Assembly: GCA_005776475.1 (NCBI GenBank)
Contig: SXPB01000019.1
Coordinates: forward strand, 1-32,692
Source: Planctomycetia bacterium
GTDB lineage: Bacteria; Planctomycetota; UBA1135; UBA2386
Length of the DNA stretch: 32,692 bases
Direction of reading: 5' to 3'
In this document: one piece after another, positions 9,395-25,170 of the stretch
Layout of the letters: each line of letters opens with the position of its first letter
Numbering within the stretch: the first letter of the stretch is position 1
Notes under the pieces: model-generated
Seen by the model: only the letters and a program-made list of their open reading frames with translations
Database searches by the model: none
Told to the model about the DNA's origin: nothing
Program-made: the position numbers and the translations under genes

Positions 9395-10000
9395 CTAACG
9401 AGGCGCTCCGTATCGAATCGCGGCGAAGTCGATGCCGGGAGCGGACTCAAGGTCGACGAAGACGATGGTGGTTTCGGGGTGAGTTTCTTGGGCCAGCCAG
9501 ACGCCACCGACGACCGCAGCGGCTGCTGCCGTCATCGCACCCAGCAACCAGCGGTGTTTGGCGCGTCCCGCCCGTTCGACATGCGCTTCGGCAAGGATCG
9601 CGCGGTGGACTTGCGACCACGCTGCCGGGCTCGTGCGAGGCTGCTTCGACAGGGCGGCCTGCAGGACCGGGGATTCGAGGGCCGGCGCCACCCACTCAGG
9701 CTTCTGGGTGGCTGCCGCGACGCGGTCGCGCAGGGCTTCCGCCATCGAACCGTTGTCACAGTCGGCGACCACTCGTTCGAGCGTCGCCTCCACCAGGTTG
9801 CGAGACAGCAAGGCGGCAGGCAGCGACGGCCGCGCGCTCAATGCGGGGGCCATGCGGCGTTGGAACGCGAGCACTGCGCCGCAGCGATCGCAATGGGGTG
9901 CGACCGGGTCGGCTGCATCGAGCTTCGCGCGCAGGAAGTTCCTGCATTCGTCGCCCAGCGGCGAACGCAGTCCAGCGGATCGATCTCCAGCGGCAGTCAT
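9395..10000 (-). CDS. Anti-sigma factor (zinc-finger type, single TM)
   Basis: CRNFLRAKLDAADPVAPHCDRCGAVL motif, TM LLGAMTAAAAAVVGGVWLA, ATGA overlap with the ECF sigma gene. Confidence 0.75.
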   Translation of the reverse strand: MTAAGDRSAGLRSPLGDECRNFLRAKLDAADPVAPHCDRCGAVLAFQRRMAPALSARPSLPAALLSRNLVEATLERVVADCDNGSMAEALRDRVAAATQKPEWVAPALESPVLQAALSKQPRTSPAAWSQVHRAILAEAHVERAGRAKHRWLLGAMTAAAAAVVGGVWLAQETHPETTIVFVDLESAPGIDFAAIRYGAPR

Positions 10001-10614
10001 CCGACGTCTCCCATGGAATCAGGGGCCGCGCTGCCCGTGTCGAGGTGCGGGTAACGGTTGCGAACTACGGTTTCGAGAGCGAGGTGGGCACGCGCGAGGC
10101 GTGATTTCACCGTTCCCAACGACAACCCGAGCGTCGCGGCTAATTCTTCGTAGGACATGTCCTCCAGGTAGCGGAGGGCGAGGATGGCGCGCAGCTTGGG
10201 GCTCAGCAACGCGATCGCCTCTTGGACCTGGTCGCCGAGTTCTTTCGTCTCGGCGCGGTCGCGAGGGTTCGGTGCGTCATCGACCAGATCGATGGAGCAC
10301 TCGCCTTGCGTGCCAATGCGGGCGGCTTCTCGCTTCCGGCGGTGGTCGATGCTGCAGTTGACCACGATCCGGAACAACCAGGTGCTGAACATCGAGCCGC
10401 CGCGGAAGCCGTGCAGTTTGCGCAGCACCAAGGCGAAGCTCTCCTGCACTACATCGAGCGCATCGACCGCGTTGCCGACGACCCGGTAGGCGATGGCATA
10501 GACGCGCTCGCGGTAGCGAACGAACAACTGCTCGAATGCGCCTTCGAAGCCGTCGGATTCTGGGTGCCGGCAAACGGCAACCAATTCGGCATCGGGATCG
10601 CGCAGAAGTTCCAC
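9997..10614 (-). CDS. ECF RNA polymerase sigma factor (RpoE-like); start uncertain (GTG at 10614 or further upstream up to 10740)
   Basis: Sigma2 FEQLFVRYRERVYAIAYRVVGNAVDALDVVQESFALVLRKL..FSTWLFRIVVNCSIDHRRK; sigma4 LSPKLRAILALRYLEDMSYEELAATLGLSLGTVKSRLARAHL. Confidence 0.92.
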   Translation of the reverse strand: MELLRDPDAELVAVCRHPESDGFEGAFEQLFVRYRERVYAIAYRVVGNAVDALDVVQESFALVLRKLHGFRGGSMFSTWLFRIVVNCSIDHRRKREAARIGTQGECSIDLVDDAPNPRDRAETKELGDQVQEAIALLSPKLRAILALRYLEDMSYEELAATLGLSLGTVKSRLARAHLALETVVRNRYPHLDTGSAAPDSMGDVG

Positions 10615-10782
10615 GGGGGATTGACGTCCGCAGATCAGGTCCGGGTTCCCTGAATTGTTGTTAGATGCGACAAAACCCGGTGCCAGCAGCCAAGTTGTGG
10701 CGTACGTGTCGCTGCGTCCGCAACCAGTCCCAAACGGCACCCAGTAGGCCCGAGGCGGCAGTCCCGAAGTGTTCCCGACGGC

Positions 10783-17542: not shown

Positions 17543-18838
17543 TTAGCGAGCGTTTGAACCAGCTGGCCAGTCGGCAAAGGACTGCAGTCCGAGCACAGGC
17601 AGCGCGAACGCGGCGCACTCAGGCCATGCCGCGGTGTCGCAGGCGGCGAACACGGCGGCGATGTGGCGGCGGCGTTCGGGCGTGCACACCGAGTCGGGCG
17701 TGCGCGTCCACAGGCCAAGCCGCAGGCCACCTTCGTGCGCGTGGTCGACGTGGCGATGCAGATGGAACGCGTCGATGCCGGGCGAACGTTGCACGATCGA
17801 CCACGCCAGCGCATACGCCGCGGCCTGGTCGCGTTCGCCGTGTTCGCCATCGGCGCAGTGGAAGCCCTGCTCGCTGAGGATCACGCGGCGCGGTGTGTCC
17901 TGCCAACGCAGTTCGTCGCGGGCAAGGCAGCGGTCCAGCACCTGCAGATTGCGGAACGTCACGCGCGGCGCATCGTCGGCATCGGGCGCACTCGCATCGC
18001 GCCAGAAGCGGCAATCGAACAGGTTCTCCGGATACGGATGGAACGCGACGTGCCAGTCGAAGTCGCCGAGGGCGTGCGCGCGCACGCGCGCCGCCAAGGC
18101 CAGCAGCAGCTCGCGGCCGGGGGCGGCCTGCTCGGCATCACCGGCGGCGTAGCGCGCATTCCAGTGGTGTTCGAGCGACACGAACACGCGGCCGTGGCGG
18201 CTGTGGGCGCGCACGGCGCCGTGCACGAGGCGCAGCGCTTGTTCGTATTCGGCGACGACGGTGGCGAGGTCGGCCTTGCCGAGGTGGTACCACCACCAGT
18301 GCGAGTTCACTTCGTTGCCGACGATCCAGTTCCAGATGCGGCCGTGCGGCGCGTCACCGGAGTAACGCGCCGCCAGGAACGCCACCGCGGCAGCCAGCCA
18401 GCGCCTGCCCTCGGGGGTCGCGGTCTGGAATGCGGCGATGCCGTTCGGTGCCTTGCCGGTGCAACGCGAGTGCACGACGAGGCGATCGCGCGCCGGATCG
18501 CCGGTTTGGATCGCGAGCAGGATCGCGCTGACAACCACGCCGGCCTTCGCCAGTGGAGCGACCTGGGCATCGAGCGCGTTGATCGGTGCTTTGCGGAACG
18601 TGAAGTGCTCGCCGTCGTGTTGCCACGGCAGACAATCGTCACCGCCGGCAGGAGCGCACAACGCGCCGAGATCGACGTTCAACGCCGCGTGCGCGATGCC
18701 GAGCGCCAACGCATCGTCGACCATCTGCACCTGCAGCCCCTTCTTGCTCGTCGGCGTCGGGTACGGCGTCGCATCCTGGGCGAGGGACGACGTCGCCTGC
18801 ACAGCGAACACGGCGACCAGAAGAGCCTGACGCAGCAT
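17543..18838 (-). CDS. Secreted DUF5722-like / glycoside-hydrolase-fold protein
   Basis: Signal MLRQALLVAVFAVQATSSLAQ; SKKGLQVQMVDDALALGIAHAALNVDLG; putative acid/base WNWIVGNEVNSHWWWYHLG and nucleophile VILSEQGFH. Confidence 0.7.
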   Translation of the reverse strand: MLRQALLVAVFAVQATSSLAQDATPYPTPTSKKGLQVQMVDDALALGIAHAALNVDLGALCAPAGGDDCLPWQHDGEHFTFRKAPINALDAQVAPLAKAGVVVSAILLAIQTGDPARDRLVVHSRCTGKAPNGIAAFQTATPEGRRWLAAAVAFLAARYSGDAPHGRIWNWIVGNEVNSHWWWYHLGKADLATVVAEYEQALRLVHGAVRAHSRHGRVFVSLEHHWNARYAAGDAEQAAPGRELLLALAARVRAHALGDFDWHVAFHPYPENLFDCRFWRDASAPDADDAPRVTFRNLQVLDRCLARDELRWQDTPRRVILSEQGFHCADGEHGERDQAAAYALAWSIVQRSPGIDAFHLHRHVDHAHEGGLRLGLWTRTPDSVCTPERRRHIAAVFAACDTAAWPECAAFALPVLGLQSFADWPAGSNAR

Positions 18839-19145
18839 CTCGACCAGACTATCGCTTGCAACGGTGCGCGATGGTGAATGTCACGTCATGCAGCGGCAGC
18901 ACCCCAAAGGCCAAGCGCGCGGGTTCAACTGCGCACGAGGGTCACTTCGCCGCGGCGCAGTCGCAGCGGCAGGCGTCGGCTGCCGCCGTCGCGCCCTACT
19001 TCGCGCGGAGTGTGCGGTCGGGCATGCCATGCGAGTGCGCGTCGGCAACGTATGCCGATGGAACGCGGTCAGGGACGAGCCGTTGGCCGAAGGAAAGTTT
19101 CCAGATTCGGCGCAAGAATCGAATCGAGCGACGTGATCCTCGTGC

Positions 19146-21587
19146 ATGACGACCGCCGATCGGATCCAGCAGATGCTCGCCGAGACTCGGTGGCTGCATG
19201 GGTTGGCGAGGCAACTCGTCGCGTGTGACCACACCGCTGCTGATCTGGTACAGGACACGCTATCGACCGCTTGGCGCCGTCCTCCGGCCGGGGCCGGGCC
19301 CGTCCGGGCGTGGTTGCGGACCGTGCTGCTGCGCAACTGGCGCGACAAACATCGCCGCCGCGATCGCCGCCGTCGCCATGAGCATGCTCAAGCGAGTGCG
19401 CACGAAGCGTTCGCGCCCGATCCGGCCGACGTCGTGCACAAGGCGGAGTCGCAACGGGCGCTCGTGGCCGCGGTGCTGGCGCTCGCCGAACCGTTCCGCA
19501 CCTGCGTCCTGCTGCGCTTCTTCGACAACCTGCCGCCGCGCGTGATCGCGGCGCGCACCGGGGTCACCGTCTCGACGGTCAACAGTCGTCTGCAGCGCGC
19601 GCTGGCGATGCTGCGGCGGCACTTCGCCGAACGGCACGGCGAACGCTGGAGCTCGGCGTTGTTGCCGCTTCTGGCGCCACCTTCGCACTGGCTGCCGCTA
19701 CTCGGAGTTCCACTCGTGCCCACCGCGCTGAAGTTCGTTCCGGTCGCCGTACTGTTCGTCGTTGCGTGTTGGTGGTGGCAAACACCGGAGCCGGCACCGA
19801 CGCCGGCGGTGGCCGCGTTGGATCGTTTCGAACGGTTGGTCGCGGCGCCACCGACGGAGTCTTCCGTGCCTGCCGCTGAGGCTGCGAGTCGGCTGGATTC
19901 GACACCGGCTGCCAGCGCCGCGGTCAGTGCGCCCGATTCCGAAATGCGTTGGCGCGGTCGAGTGGTGGATGCGCAAGGCGCGGTTCGACCTGGCGTGCAG
20001 CTGCAGATCGGCGCCGGCGACGCGACCATCGTCAGCGGTGCCGAGGGAGTGTTCGAGATCGTGGGGCAGCAGGGCAGTGGCACGGTTCGTTCGCGCGACC
20101 CACGCTGGTCGACGGTGATGCAGGGGCTGCTGCGTCAGGATCGCGTTTGCACGATCGTCGTCGCTCCGCGACTCGATCTCGGTGGGCGAGTCGTCGATGC
20201 CTCCGGCGCGCCGGTGCCTCGCGCTGCGGTCCAGGTCCATTCGCCGACGATGCTCGGTGCCGATCTCGGCATGTTGCTCGACTTCTCGACGCCGTGCTCT
20301 TGGCGATGCGAATGCGACGACGATGGCCGGTTTCACTTGGCCGACGTGCCGTTGGTTGCGGGTGCATCGCTCGTTGCCGAACTGGGCGGTTGGGTGCCGC
20401 GCATCGTTCCCTTGCCGCCGGCATCGACTGAATTGCTGGAGCTCGTGTTGGAACGCCCGGCGACATCGGCGTCGGTGATCGAAGGCCTGGTCGTCGATCG
20501 ATGGGGAGCCGCGGTGGCGCAGGCGCGCGTGAGTGCGGGAGCGGCGGTTGCACGCAGCGATGCGCGCGGGGGCTTTGCACTCGACGTGGCGGGGAACGCG
20601 ACGATGCAGCGTTTGGTCGCCGTGGCGCCGGGGGCCTTGCCGGCGATCTTCGTGCCCGAACGCGACGCTGCGGGCGCGCCGCGTTGGCCAGCGCGCGTGG
20701 TGCTGCAGTTGGGTGGTCCTCCACGCACGCTCACAGGCCGGGTGACGTTCGCTGATGGCAAGCCCGCAGCGGGCGCGAAGGTCTGGCTCGCCGATCCGAC
20801 CTTGGTCGGCACGGAAGACGACGTCGTGCTCGCCGAGAGTCTGCTCGCGGGCGAGGAGCGTCCGTTCTGGAACTTTGTTCTCGCCGCCGCCGATGGCACG
20901 TTCCGCATCGACGGGTTGAGCGAGCGGTCCTACACGCTGCGCGCACTCGACGGCCGGACGCTGCTCGAGCACACGGTGCTCGGCGTGCGGCCGGGGCCTT
21001 CGCCGATCGACCTGCGGCTCGCCGGCAGCTTGTTCGATCGGGTGCGAGTGAAGATCCTCGCGCGCGATCGCCAACCGATCGCCGGTGCGAAGGTGGTGCT
21101 GCAGCGTCCCGCGCTGGAGGTGCAGGTGCCGGGTGGAACGCGCGACGAATGGGCGACGGGTGCGGCGGGGCAGTCGGACACGAACGGAGTGGTGGAGTTC
21201 ACCAACGTGCCGACGAGCGGCGTCGAGGTGTTTGCATCCGGCGACGACATTCTGTTCGCCGGGCGCACGATCGAGCCCGGCATCGACCCGAACGAGTTCG
21301 TGGTCACGGTCGATCGGCGCGTGCATCTGCAGGTCCAGCTGTCGCCGCCATTCGATCGGGTCGATCGCTGTCGCGTGCTCGATGCCGATGGCAAGTCGAT
21401 GCTGTTGCGAGTGATGCGTGGCAACGCCGCGCAAACGAGTCGCAGCGCCGCGGTGACCGAAGGGCGCAGCCACATCCTGTCGTTGGGTGAAGGTGCGCGC
21501 ACGCTGGTGTTGTTGCGCGGCGACCAGGAAGTGGGGCGGATTCCGATCGATCTCTCGCCGGGGCCGGTGCACACGGCGAACTTCTGA
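19146..21587 (+). CDS. ECF sigma factor fused to a TM segment and multiple carboxypeptidase-regulatory-like domains
   Basis: N-terminal sigma2 (HGLARQLVACDHTAADLVQDTLSTAWRRP..VRAWLRTVLLRNWRDKHRRR) and sigma4 (LAEPFRTCVLLRFFDNLPPRVIAARTGVTVSTVNSRLQRALAMLRRHF); TM FVPVAVLFVVACWWW; repeats WRGRVVDAQGAVRPGV.., LGGRVVDASGAPVPRAAVQV.., IEGLVVDRWGAAVAQARV.., LTGRVTFADGKPAAGAKVWL.., VRVKILARDRQPIAGAKVVL.. Confidence 0.9.
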   Translation: MTTADRIQQMLAETRWLHGLARQLVACDHTAADLVQDTLSTAWRRPPAGAGPVRAWLRTVLLRNWRDKHRRRDRRRRHEHAQASAHEAFAPDPADVVHKAESQRALVAAVLALAEPFRTCVLLRFFDNLPPRVIAARTGVTVSTVNSRLQRALAMLRRHFAERHGERWSSALLPLLAPPSHWLPLLGVPLVPTALKFVPVAVLFVVACWWWQTPEPAPTPAVAALDRFERLVAAPPTESSVPAAEAASRLDSTPAASAAVSAPDSEMRWRGRVVDAQGAVRPGVQLQIGAGDATIVSGAEGVFEIVGQQGSGTVRSRDPRWSTVMQGLLRQDRVCTIVVAPRLDLGGRVVDASGAPVPRAAVQVHSPTMLGADLGMLLDFSTPCSWRCECDDDGRFHLADVPLVAGASLVAELGGWVPRIVPLPPASTELLELVLERPATSASVIEGLVVDRWGAAVAQARVSAGAAVARSDARGGFALDVAGNATMQRLVAVAPGALPAIFVPERDAAGAPRWPARVVLQLGGPPRTLTGRVTFADGKPAAGAKVWLADPTLVGTEDDVVLAESLLAGEERPFWNFVLAAADGTFRIDGLSERSYTLRALDGRTLLEHTVLGVRPGPSPIDLRLAGSLFDRVRVKILARDRQPIAGAKVVLQRPALEVQVPGGTRDEWATGAAGQSDTNGVVEFTNVPTSGVEVFASGDDILFAGRTIEPGIDPNEFVVTVDRRVHLQVQLSPPFDRVDRCRVLDADGKSMLLRVMRGNAAQTSRSAAVTEGRSHILSLGEGARTLVLLRGDQEVGRIPIDLSPGPVHTANF

Positions 21588-21602: not shown

Positions 21603-22064
21603 TCAGCCGTTGGCGACGGGCGCTGCGTCCTGCGGCTTGCTGCGCAGCAGGAAGAAGCCGAGTACGAGCCCGCCGCCGATGAGGCCGAGGCCGATCAGGA
21701 AACCGGATCGGTTGTCCTTCGAGCCGCCGACAATGATCGCGACCGAGGGATCGCTCGCGTCGTAACGCACCGTGCACTTGTCCTCGACGATTTCGTCGCC
21801 TTTGACGACTCGCTCCGCGAACTCACGGCTGACTTCGAACTCCTGCTGGCGCGCCGCGCCGCCTTCGGGCGTGAAAGTCACCGTGAAGCTGTAGGACTTG
21901 CGACCGCGGCGCCCGCGTTCGACGCTGCCGCCTTCCAGGATGCCTGGCGCTTCCTTGCCGGCGGCTTCGATGCGGCCCCACTTGCCGCGATCCTGCCAGC
22001 CTTGCCAGCCGAGGACCCCACCGCCGCCGATCAGGCCGAGTGCCACCCATGCGAGTTTCTTCAT
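21603..22064 (-). CDS. DUF3592-like membrane protein
   Basis: Two TM segments flanking SYSFTVTFTPEGGAARQQEFEVSREFAERVVKGDEIVEDKCTVRYDASDPSVAII. Confidence 0.65.
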   Translation of the reverse strand: MKKLAWVALGLIGGGGVLGWQGWQDRGKWGRIEAAGKEAPGILEGGSVERGRRGRKSYSFTVTFTPEGGAARQQEFEVSREFAERVVKGDEIVEDKCTVRYDASDPSVAIIVGGSKDNRSGFLIGLGLIGGGLVLGFFLLRSKPQDAAPVANG

Positions 22065-22106: not shown

Positions 22107-24032
22107 TCACTCGGGGCGGGGGAACAGTTGCGTGCGCGCGTTCGTCGTGAGGTCGAGGCGGACGATGCGGGCGCCGTCGAGCAGCACGGCGGTGTTCGCG
22201 TCGGGCCAGTCGAGCAGGCGCATCTGTTGGAGGTTGTCGCTCATCGACGCCAACTCCGTCACCTGGAGTTTCGCGACGTCGACCAACAGTAGTTGATCCC
22301 GGCCCCCGCCGTTGAGGCAGTGCAACCACAGACGACCGGCAGGATCGCGGGCCAGCAGTGAGCCCCAGCGGTTAAAGGGCGCGACGACACCAAGTGACAA
22401 GAACGAGGCGCCAGGAGGCAAAGTGAGATCGGTTTCCGTGCCGTTCGATGGGCGGTACAGGAACAACCGCGTCGGCGCGAACTTCTTGTGTTGGTAGTGG
22501 GTTCGCGCGGCAAGCACGTGGTCGTCGTCGACCAGGCCAAGAACACGGCATGCTTGCAAAGGGGCGCACGGCTTCTTCTGGCCGTCGCGCGTCTCCGTCC
22601 AATGGGAGCCCGACTTTCCTGGCAGCCGCGACAGCAATACGTCGCGCACCAGGTAGGCATCTGTCTCATCGTCGACCAACGTCGCTCCGGAGGTGAGGTC
22701 GACCACGCGGCGCCGACCGCCGTACACCACCACGGCGTGGCCAGCGGGACTGATGGAAGTGGTTGTGTCGACGTCGAGCACGCGGTGGTCGGAGCCATCG
22801 GCGTTCGTCGTCCACACCGCTCCGTCGTCACACCAGACCGGGCGGTTGCCAGGCAGGCGCAGCGCCGTCGTCGCTTTCAGTTCGGCGATGATGCGTCGGT
22901 GCTGGTCCGCCGTCGGCAGTGGTCGGTTTGCATTCTTGTCGAAGGTGAAGGGCTCGCGGTTTCCGGTCGCGAGGTCGAGCAGCTCGCGCTCGCGCTCCCC
23001 AGCCATGTCGTGGAACAGCCAGTGCCGTTGTCGACCCGATAGCACCATGCGATGCGGCCGCAGCAGGCTCGGGGACGAGTAGGTGTTGATACCTGACAAC
23101 TGCTCGGCGGTGCCCCGCGCGAGGTCGATGCGAATCGGCACGGAGCACCACGAGTCCATCGTGTTGCCGTAGGCGAGTGCGTAGCTACCGTCGGGGCTGA
23201 TTCCCAACACGTTCATGTCGGCGAGCTGGGTGAGGTCGGGGTGGTGGTAGTGCCAGGCCCGCACCCCGAGCCACGCACTGGGCGGCACGAACACGATGGC
23301 TGCGCCACACAGGCCGAAGCGCGCCGAACGCAGTGAACCACCGCCGCGCCGACCGCGGATCCACGACAGCGCCGCGATCGCGAACCCGGTCGGCGGCACC
23401 GCCCACAGCCAGTGCCACCATTCGAGCCCGTGCTCGATGTTCGGACTCTGCCGCAGCACCGCGAACACGCCGACGCCGACGAGCAGCACGAACAGCAGCG
23501 TGCCACCGAGCGCCATGCGGCCACCGGGCAGCCACGTGCCGATCGCCCACACCCACGGCGCCAGCAGCAGCGCGCCGCCGGCGATCACGACAACTGCTGA
23601 CCACTCGATGTTCACTTCACCGCGCCAGTCCCACACGTACAGCTTGTCCCAGTCGTGGCCGAGAGCGGTGAGGATCACCTCGCCGGCAGCGAGGCCGAGC
23701 AGCGGCAGGGACAGCAGCGTCAGGACGAAGAACAACAGCTTGCCCGCGAACGCCGGGGCGAGCGCCCCCGGCAACCGGCGCACGAACTGGTCGTCCTTGG
23801 TGCCGAACTCCGACCGCACGAGGTTGGGGGCGACGAATGCGACGACGCCGATCACGCCGGCGACAACGAACCACGACAGCGCGCGCGCGCCGAAGCCGTC
23901 GTTGGTCCAAAGGTGCGTCGGCACCAGCGAGAAGCCGAGCGTGAGGCATGCGAACACGAGCCCGAGGTACGCGAGCAACAGCCCCCGCTGCGCGCGCCAC
24001 TCCTTCCAGCAGAACGTCAGTGCGAGGTTCAC
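22107..24032 (-). CDS. ABC-2-type permease with C-terminal beta-propeller-like domain
   Basis: MNLALTFCWKEWRAQRGLLLAYLGLVFACLTLGFSL and several further TM segments, then a ~350-aa region with propeller-like strands (MNVLGISPDGSYALAYG, WCDDGAVWTTNADGSDHRVLDVD, SLLARDPAGRLWLHCLNGG); overlaps the ABC ATPase gene. Confidence 0.8.
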   Translation of the reverse strand: MNLALTFCWKEWRAQRGLLLAYLGLVFACLTLGFSLVPTHLWTNDGFGARALSWFVVAGVIGVVAFVAPNLVRSEFGTKDDQFVRRLPGALAPAFAGKLLFFVLTLLSLPLLGLAAGEVILTALGHDWDKLYVWDWRGEVNIEWSAVVVIAGGALLLAPWVWAIGTWLPGGRMALGGTLLFVLLVGVGVFAVLRQSPNIEHGLEWWHWLWAVPPTGFAIAALSWIRGRRGGGSLRSARFGLCGAAIVFVPPSAWLGVRAWHYHHPDLTQLADMNVLGISPDGSYALAYGNTMDSWCSVPIRIDLARGTAEQLSGINTYSSPSLLRPHRMVLSGRQRHWLFHDMAGERERELLDLATGNREPFTFDKNANRPLPTADQHRRIIAELKATTALRLPGNRPVWCDDGAVWTTNADGSDHRVLDVDTTTSISPAGHAVVVYGGRRRVVDLTSGATLVDDETDAYLVRDVLLSRLPGKSGSHWTETRDGQKKPCAPLQACRVLGLVDDDHVLAARTHYQHKKFAPTRLFLYRPSNGTETDLTLPPGASFLSLGVVAPFNRWGSLLARDPAGRLWLHCLNGGGRDQLLLVDVAKLQVTELASMSDNLQQMRLLDWPDANTAVLLDGARIVRLDLTTNARTQLFPRPE

Positions 24033-24751
24033 GACGCCACCTCCGCGAGCACGCGCTGCAGACCGCGCGGCGCCGCCACCGGTTCGTCTTCGCCGAGCAC
24101 TTCGGCCAGCGTCCCGTGCTTCACCACGCGTCCGGCCTGCAGCACCGCGATGCGGTCGGCGATGCGCGCGGCGATGTCGAGTTCATGCGTCGCACACAGC
24201 ACCGTGCGTTCGCCGGCGCGCAGCGAATCGAGCACGCCCTGCAGCACTTCCTCGCGCACCAGCGGATCGAGCCCCGCGAACGGTTCGTCGAGCAGCAGCA
24301 GTTCCGGCTCCGGCGCCAACGCCGCGACCAGCATCGTCTTCATGCCCTGGCCGCGCGACATCGTCTTGATCTTGGTGCGCAGCGGCACCGCGAGCCGTTC
24401 GCACAGCTCGGCGCATACGCTGTCGTTCCAGGTCGGATACTGCGGCCGCAAGAACGCGAACAGGTCGCGCGCCGTCATCCACGGATAACAATCGGGAACG
24501 TCGGGCACGTAACCGACGCGCCGCAGCACCTCGCGGTGCGCGCGCAGCGGATCCTGTCCGAACAGTCGCACCGAGCCGGCGCGCGGCCGAACGACACCGA
24601 GCAACACGCGCAGCAGCGTGCTCGTGCCGGCCCCGTTGGCGCCGAGCAGCACCGTCACCGTGCCGTCGTGCAGCGACAGGTCGAGCCCGTCGAGCACGCG
24701 CTTGCGGCCAAAACCGGCCACCAGGCCGTCCACTGTGAGCACCGAGTTCAT
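24029..24751 (-). CDS. ABC transporter ATP-binding protein with altered Walker A
   Basis: GANGAGTSTLLRVLLGVVRPRAGSVRLFG, MSRGQGMKTMLVAALAPEPELLLLDEPFAGLDP, ATHEL H-loop; Walker A Lys replaced by Thr (ACG codon, complement of 24623-24625). Confidence 0.92.
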   Translation of the reverse strand: MNSVLTVDGLVAGFGRKRVLDGLDLSLHDGTVTVLLGANGAGTSTLLRVLLGVVRPRAGSVRLFGQDPLRAHREVLRRVGYVPDVPDCYPWMTARDLFAFLRPQYPTWNDSVCAELCERLAVPLRTKIKTMSRGQGMKTMLVAALAPEPELLLLDEPFAGLDPLVREEVLQGVLDSLRAGERTVLCATHELDIAARIADRIAVLQAGRVVKHGTLAEVLGEDEPVAAPRGLQRVLAEVAS

Positions 24752-25170
24752 GCTTTGCTCCTCTGTCTCCCCGTTTCCCCGAGTCCCTGTCCTTGTCCCT
24801 GCGCCGCGCGCGCGTGCGCAATCGCCGCGCGCAGCACCTGTTCGTCGTGGCCGGCGCGCAACGCCGCCGCCGCCGCCTGCTGGAACGTCGCCAAGGTCTC
24901 CGCCAGCCGCAGCGCCTTCGCCACGTCGGGCCCGGCCGCAGTGACGTAGACGCCCGAACCGTTGCGCCCTTCGGTCGCACCGAGGTGCTCGAGGTCGCGG
25001 TAGGCCTTGATCACCGTGTTCGGATTGACCAGCGCGTCGCCGGCGAGCCCGCGCACCGACGGCAGCTTGTCGCCCGGCGCAAGTTCACCGGCAGCAATCG
25101 CATCGAGCACGGCGGCGACGAGCTGTTGGCTCGGCGGCACGAGGCTGTGTGGATCGACGCGGACGTTCAC
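24748..25170 (-). CDS. GntR-family regulator, YtrA-like
   Basis: PPSQQLVAAVLDAIAAGELAPGDKLPSVRGLAGDALVNPNTVIKAYRDLEHLGATEGRNGSGVYV; short C-terminal domain; translationally coupled to the ABC genes. Confidence 0.92.
   Translation of the reverse strand: MNVRVDPHSLVPPSQQLVAAVLDAIAAGELAPGDKLPSVRGLAGDALVNPNTVIKAYRDLEHLGATEGRNGSGVYVTAAGPDVAKALRLAETLATFQQAAAAALRAGHDEQVLRAAIAHARAAQGQGQGLGETGRQRSKA

Follow-up and report, generated by a model that had tools for sequence, protein, structure and literature searches.

In classical ECF signaling, the sensor is a separate anti-sigma factor located in the membrane. Several described systems instead carry the sigma factor as part of a larger chain. ECF52, represented by SCO4117 of Streptomyces coelicolor, consists of a sigma factor followed by a zinc finger, a TM segment, a Pro-rich stretch and a carbohydrate-binding domain; it has been reported only from Actinobacteria, and its proteolytic release has been proposed (PMC5826349). 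In IutY (ECF243) of Pseudomonas putida, the sigma factor is joined to a membrane protein and released by Prc and RseP, and ECF57 factors of Planctomycetes bear WD40-like C-terminal extensions and two conserved cysteines that link sigma2 and sigma4 (PMC8999054). The idea of a sigma-TM fusion is thus not unprecedented, ECF52 and IutY having preceded the locus described here. Our literature search, which lay outside the publications in which the ECF groups were defined, returned no paper linking ECF sigma factors with CarboxypepD domains, so an earlier mention of the architecture is possible.

The window examined here is a 32,692-nucleotide stretch of a Planctomycetia bacterium contig, and its plus strand contains a single ORF of 813 residues at 19146..21587 (P0001; ATG at 19146, stop codon at 21585-21587, no internal stop) that encodes a sigma-TM-ectodomain fusion. 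Consistent with the initial annotation, which had read complete sigma2 and sigma4 regions in this ORF, sigma region 2 (residues 15-75, 19188..19370; Pfam PF04542 Sigma70_r2, 38.5 bits versus a cut-off of 24) and sigma region 4 (residues 104-156, 19455..19613; PF08281 Sigma70_r4_2, 40.5 bits versus a cut-off of 25.7) were both found above threshold, separated by just a short linker (residues 76-103) and with no sigma1 or sigma3, as in group 4 (ECF) factors. NCBIfam TIGR02937 also matched (61.4 bits, cut-off 42.9), and Foldseek aligned the sigma part with M. tuberculosis sigma-H within the RNAP initiation complex 6kop_F (24% identity). The protein is therefore an ECF sigma factor by its domains, and binding to core RNA polymerase is predicted from the sigma-H fold match.

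Downstream of sigma4 lies a juxtamembrane stretch (residues 157-196, 19614..19733) that is part helical and then disordered in the AF2 model (pLDDT <50 at residues 181-199) and that includes W168, which is nearly invariant among homologues. It leads into the one hydrophobic helix that had been noticed in the sequence, placed at residues 197-211 (19734..19778) by hydropathy and AF2; the hydrophobic segment itself spans residues 190-208 in P0001 numbering, with a KD mean of 2.23. Beyond the TM helix, a Pro/Ala-rich disordered linker that is expected outside the membrane (residues 212-264, 19779..19937; pLDDT <50 at residues 209-264) precedes an ectodomain of ~550 residues (267-813, 19944..21584), which was delimited by PF13620, AF2 strands, Foldseek and end-to-end conservation and is made of tandem CarboxypepD_reg/pilin-like beta-sandwiches and a conserved C-terminal beta domain. 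CarboxypepD_reg (PF13620) scored 77.2 bits over four stretches, and GRVVD-type motifs lie near residues 271, 347, 447, 531 and 635, so that the earlier count of about five repeats was a fair one, with an additional C-terminal beta domain after them; the description of a non-catalytic ectodomain on a membrane-anchored ECF sigma factor is likewise supported. The AF2 model, which drew on 21 homologues and reached a mean pLDDT of 81.5, shows two sigma domains, the TM helix, the disordered linker and a chain of beta-sandwiches from residue 267 to the end at high pLDDT, and no contact that would hold the sigma part inactive was seen in it. Foldseek matches to the ectodomain were Cna-B/pilin-type stacks. 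Since the ectodomain and sigma matches are generic and whole-chain TM-scores are low, no ligand can be named from them.

The neighbors of the gene are, on the minus strand, a divergent gene for a DUF5722 protein (17543-18838; strong full-length match, 5e-110), which could be a target of the sigma factor or a mere neighbor, and a gene for a DUF3592-like membrane protein (21603-22064); as previously noted, no anti-sigma gene is among them. A fused anti-sigma domain was ruled out as well, since the stretch from sigma4 to the TM helix, modeled with low confidence, has ~35 residues, too few to form one. The window also encodes a second ECF sigma factor of a different type (10000-10782, minus strand), which is soluble and has neither a TM segment nor an extension, and a compact GntR-ABC export operon (22107-25170, minus strand) comprising a GntR regulator, an ABC ATPase and a 641-residue membrane protein. 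No SD sequence precedes the sigma start ATG at 19146 (region 19101-19146), and the sigma part may undergo leaderless translation; only three relatives were near enough for alignment of the promoter region upstream of the sigma gene.

The fusion is shared by a large family. The same genome (G000; 5.2 Mb, 76% complete) contains at least nine further ORFs of 719-1096 residues with sigma2, sigma4, a TM segment and a large C-terminal part, and eight of these nine fusions have a CarboxypepD_reg ectodomain. One paralogue (L029:6858-9014, minus strand) follows the sigma-TM plan with an ectodomain that matches neither CarboxypepD_reg nor any other Pfam family, indicating that the sigma-TM module has been joined to different kinds of ectodomain. 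We collected 142 fused homologues (140 once near-identical sequences were removed), and the homologue statistics given below are drawn from these mutually related, MAG-derived sequences. All come from Planctomycetota apart from evidently mislabeled records: four contigs (L076, L092, L104, L124) are titled Kiloniellaceae, Candidatus Kuenenia or Phycisphaera, but their genes group with the uncultured Planctomycetota family, and they are likely mis-assigned bins or contaminating contigs. Matches were present in 61 of 61 genomes in a search of relatives, many of them end to end, and in 76 of 392 genomes drawn across the phylum (E<=1e-15); full-length identity to the closest homologues is 46-50%. 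A Pfam scan of 48 members recovered Sigma70_r4_2 in 48, Sigma70_r2 in 47 and CarboxypepD_reg in 46, and all 142 homologues scored have a TM segment after the sigma part. Fused genes often occur in tandem pairs (L087, L097, L102, L113, L141), which suggests that the family expanded via local duplication.

Sigma and ectodomain distances are correlated among 46 homologues with the same type of ectodomain (Mantel r 0.63, p 5e-4), indicating that the two halves are inherited together. A frame or assembly artifact was rejected, given the 142 homologues fused in frame and the nine further sigma-TM fusions in the same genome. Among short-looking fused ORFs, L112, L121 and L140 were inspected, and the ectodomains of L121 and L140 are apparently broken by single-base frameshifts. 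Three outcomes had been named beforehand as counting against the fusion, namely a missing TM segment, homologues consistently split at the TM and sigma regions lacking core-binding residues. The homologues retrieved to examine its conservation were not so split, the TM segment is present, and sigma2 and sigma4 are complete and match sigma-H by fold.

The sigma/TM junction of the window gene contains a feature that the initial annotation had overlooked. A Shine-Dalgarno core GGAG (19704..19707, plus strand), which uses a GGA glycine codon, is positioned 8 nt before an in-frame GTG (codon 191, 19716..19718) in the sequence CTC GGA GTT CCA CTC GTG CCC. Initiation at this GTG is predicted to yield a product of 623 residues (MPTALKFVPVAVLFVVACWWW...) that has the TM helix and ectodomain but no sigma part. 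The GGAG-N8-GTG arrangement is common to the window and one relative (L076), though neighboring codons differ, and at the junction of the nearest relative (L047) the ATG is present and the GGAG absent. In the window protein, VVAC at the end of the TM segment (19752-19769, residues 203-208) fits a lipobox ([LVI][ASTVI][GAS]C); similar endings occur in L028 (VVAC) and L047 (LISC) and are absent in most homologues. Judging from these motifs, the short product that begins at the internal start could in some members be a lipoprotein and not a signal-anchor protein.

Alignment of the family junctions revealed an excess of Met 2-6 residues before the TM segment, often followed by xxK, such that the junction (MxxK, then TM) resembles the start of a signal-anchor protein. 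Met occurs at positions -9 to +2 of the TM in 72 of 140 family members compared with 9 of 63 kinase-TM junctions (p 4e-7), and an SD core lies 4-12 nt upstream of 24 of 61 junction Mets compared with 75 of the 852 Mets at other internal positions (p 1e-9). When glycine is encoded four codons before the junction Met, the codon is GGA in 19 of 25 cases, as against 11.7% of glycine codons elsewhere. We defined a strict site as GGAG, GAGG or AGGA at a spacing of 5-10 from an ATG, GTG or TTG within -12 to +2 codons of the TM. Such a site was present at 32 of 108 junctions in the discovery set (p 3e-14), which had been seen before the junction window was picked, and at 15 of 34 junctions in an independent replication set then scored by the same rule (p 2e-9), versus ~5% of control windows in each comparison. 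Among non-redundant sequences the strict site was found at 46 of 140 junctions but at only 2 of 63 Ser/Thr kinase-TM junctions from the same genomes (p 6e-7); two thirds of the homologues fall outside this definition. A laxer SD definition was dropped, since it was nearly as common in the kinase controls (44% vs 37%).

The excess is not accounted for by codon usage. Synonymous shuffling with each gene's own codon usage gave 10.4+/-2.7 expected sites compared with the 47 observed (z 13.4), and in 52 sequences of <45% identity, 17 sites were observed versus 2.9+/-1.6 expected (z 8.8); the anti-SD duplex energy differed only modestly from that of synonymous shuffles (p 0.04). The modal SD-to-start spacing is exactly 8 nt, and strict sites are spread over many family-level groups. 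Along the ORF, site frequency is highest in the junction bin (33%), compared with 13-14% in the next-highest bins and 15% at the expected sigma start. Taken together, these sequence comparisons are good evidence that selection at synonymous sites maintains an RBS and a start codon at the junction. The short C-terminal product is nevertheless a predicted one, since selection on the site does not prove its synthesis.

Stand-alone TM-ectodomain genes were found in several genomes. In one relative (G333), four tandem sigma-less homologues occupy L164:3159-10189, and three of the four have near-identical signal-anchor starts (RRTTLVLLALAALLTGIGVWFGQ or RTTTLVLL...). In an ectodomain tree that held eleven sigma-less proteins (one of which, L169, runs into a contig end and could belong to a fused gene), sigma-less and fused members are interleaved, and well-supported branches require five or more switches of label. 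In two sister pairs (L159/L059 and L156/L056), the sigma-less protein begins at the junction of its fused partner, which indicates that a short form is viable alone. A sigma HMM detected no sigma gene at any of nine sigma-less loci, and descent from an operon, with a separate sigma gene beside a sigma-less ectodomain gene, was accordingly rejected (0 of 9).

Because an RBS and start codon lie at the sigma/TM junction, the gene is probably not solely the one-component sensor initially proposed, although the single sigma-TM-ectodomain chain on which that proposal was based holds and is conserved. With moderate confidence, and arguing from sequence, we favor a two-in-one locus that yields both a membrane-tethered sigma factor, presumably released by proteolysis, and a sigma-less TM-ectodomain product. 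The first product (start at 19146) would be an ECF sigma factor whose own TM helix ties it to the inner membrane and whose tandem beta-sandwiches, resembling a receptor or adhesin, are expected on the far side of the membrane; the second (GTG at 19716) would have the same TM helix and ectodomain without sigma. The sigma part would be silent while tethered. A ligand, contact at the cell surface or failed export, perceived by the ectodomain, would trigger cleavage at the TM, first by a site-1 and next by a site-2 protease, and so release sigma for RNA polymerase. The genome encodes the site-2 protease family PF02163, but this family was also matched in 14 of 14 control genomes, and since site-2 proteases are near-universal its presence is not specific. 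The sigma-less product may join or compete with the full-length product and so set the threshold of the response; alternatively, it may be the bulk surface protein, the state of which would be reported by rarer sigma-bearing copies. A more specific form of this reading, which we put forward only tentatively, is that the locus consists of nested in-frame genes that supply in excess a sigma-less receptor pairing or competing with the sigma-bearing form, such that the ratio of the two starts would take over the role that the sigma/anti-sigma ratio has in classical ECF signaling.

Of the competing explanations, the one that survives best, though we consider it unlikely, is that the junction is a relic of the fusion of an upstream sigma gene to a signal-anchor gene, whose leftover RBS and start codon are dead, so that only the full-length sensor is made. 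The likeness of the junction to a signal-anchor N-terminus, the existence of sigma-less relatives and the lack of a strict RBS in two thirds of the members all fit this explanation. Nevertheless, GGA and the spacing of 8 persist in the <45% identity set even though synonymous sites are saturated, the sigma and ectodomain parts are co-inherited, and no unfused sigma gene was found next to the sigma-less ectodomain genes, so that repeated recent fusion has no visible source. Somewhat less probable again is a sigma factor that works while tethered, in the manner of the membrane-bound one-component regulators ToxR and CadC, and that the ectodomain controls by dimerization or conformation without proteolysis. 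A short flexible juxtamembrane stretch that would keep sigma accessible, together with the absence of an anti-sigma or inhibitory domain and of any inhibitory contact predicted by AF2, is in keeping with such an arrangement, but sigma factors normally must travel with RNA polymerase, and proteolytic release is known or has been proposed for the described sigma-TM fusions IutY and ECF52. Finally, SD-like stretches near TM segments have been proposed to pause translation, but that the GGAG is no start site and slows ribosomes ahead of the TM to aid membrane insertion is very improbable, since a pause leaves the Met or GTG exactly 8 nt downstream and the MxxK context unexplained and the kinase-TM junctions of the same genomes lack the motif (2/63).

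The family thus combines sensor and sigma factor in one chain with no anti-sigma domain, and genomes across Planctomycetota each hold many diverged copies of it. If the two-in-one reading is correct, envelope signals would be wired to transcription in a different way, and many genes annotated simply as sigma factors would contain hidden second products; if the nested genes are also real, these Planctomycetota would possess a sensory layer without anti-sigma factors, encoded by many such genes per genome. The family differs from ECF52 and IutY in its lack of an anti-sigma domain, its type of ectodomain and its expansion of paralogues, and the internal start is what is new.

Like ECF52, the window protein connects an ECF sigma factor via a TM segment to a long extracytoplasmic part, and it has a Pro/Ala linker after the TM; however, the anti-sigma-like zinc finger that ECF52 carries between sigma and TM has no Pfam match in it, and in place of a carbohydrate-binding module the family has CarboxypepD_reg repeats and an internal start before the TM. 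The covalent link between sigma factor and membrane protein is shared with IutY, whereas the fused anti-sigma domain of IutY (FecR-type, for iron-siderophore cell-surface signaling) likewise has no Pfam match in the window protein; the ECF48, ECF52, ECF53 and IutY fusions all carry an anti-sigma-like part, and the present family is without one. ECF57 resembles it as a Planctomycetota ECF factor with a large C-terminal extension, but WD40 repeats are absent from the window protein and from the 25 commonest families among 48 homologues, and a 20-member alignment contains no conserved Cys in the sigma part that could correspond to the ECF57 pair. Ser/Thr kinases of Planctomycetota follow the same plan of cytoplasmic effector, TM and ectodomain, with an internal start at only 2 of 63 TM junctions. 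Internal-start proteoforms, in which a second in-frame start gives an N-terminally shorter protein, are known for clpB and mrcB (PMC11005335); their short forms lose a modest domain, whereas the short form predicted here would be a TM receptor from which the entire transcription factor is missing.
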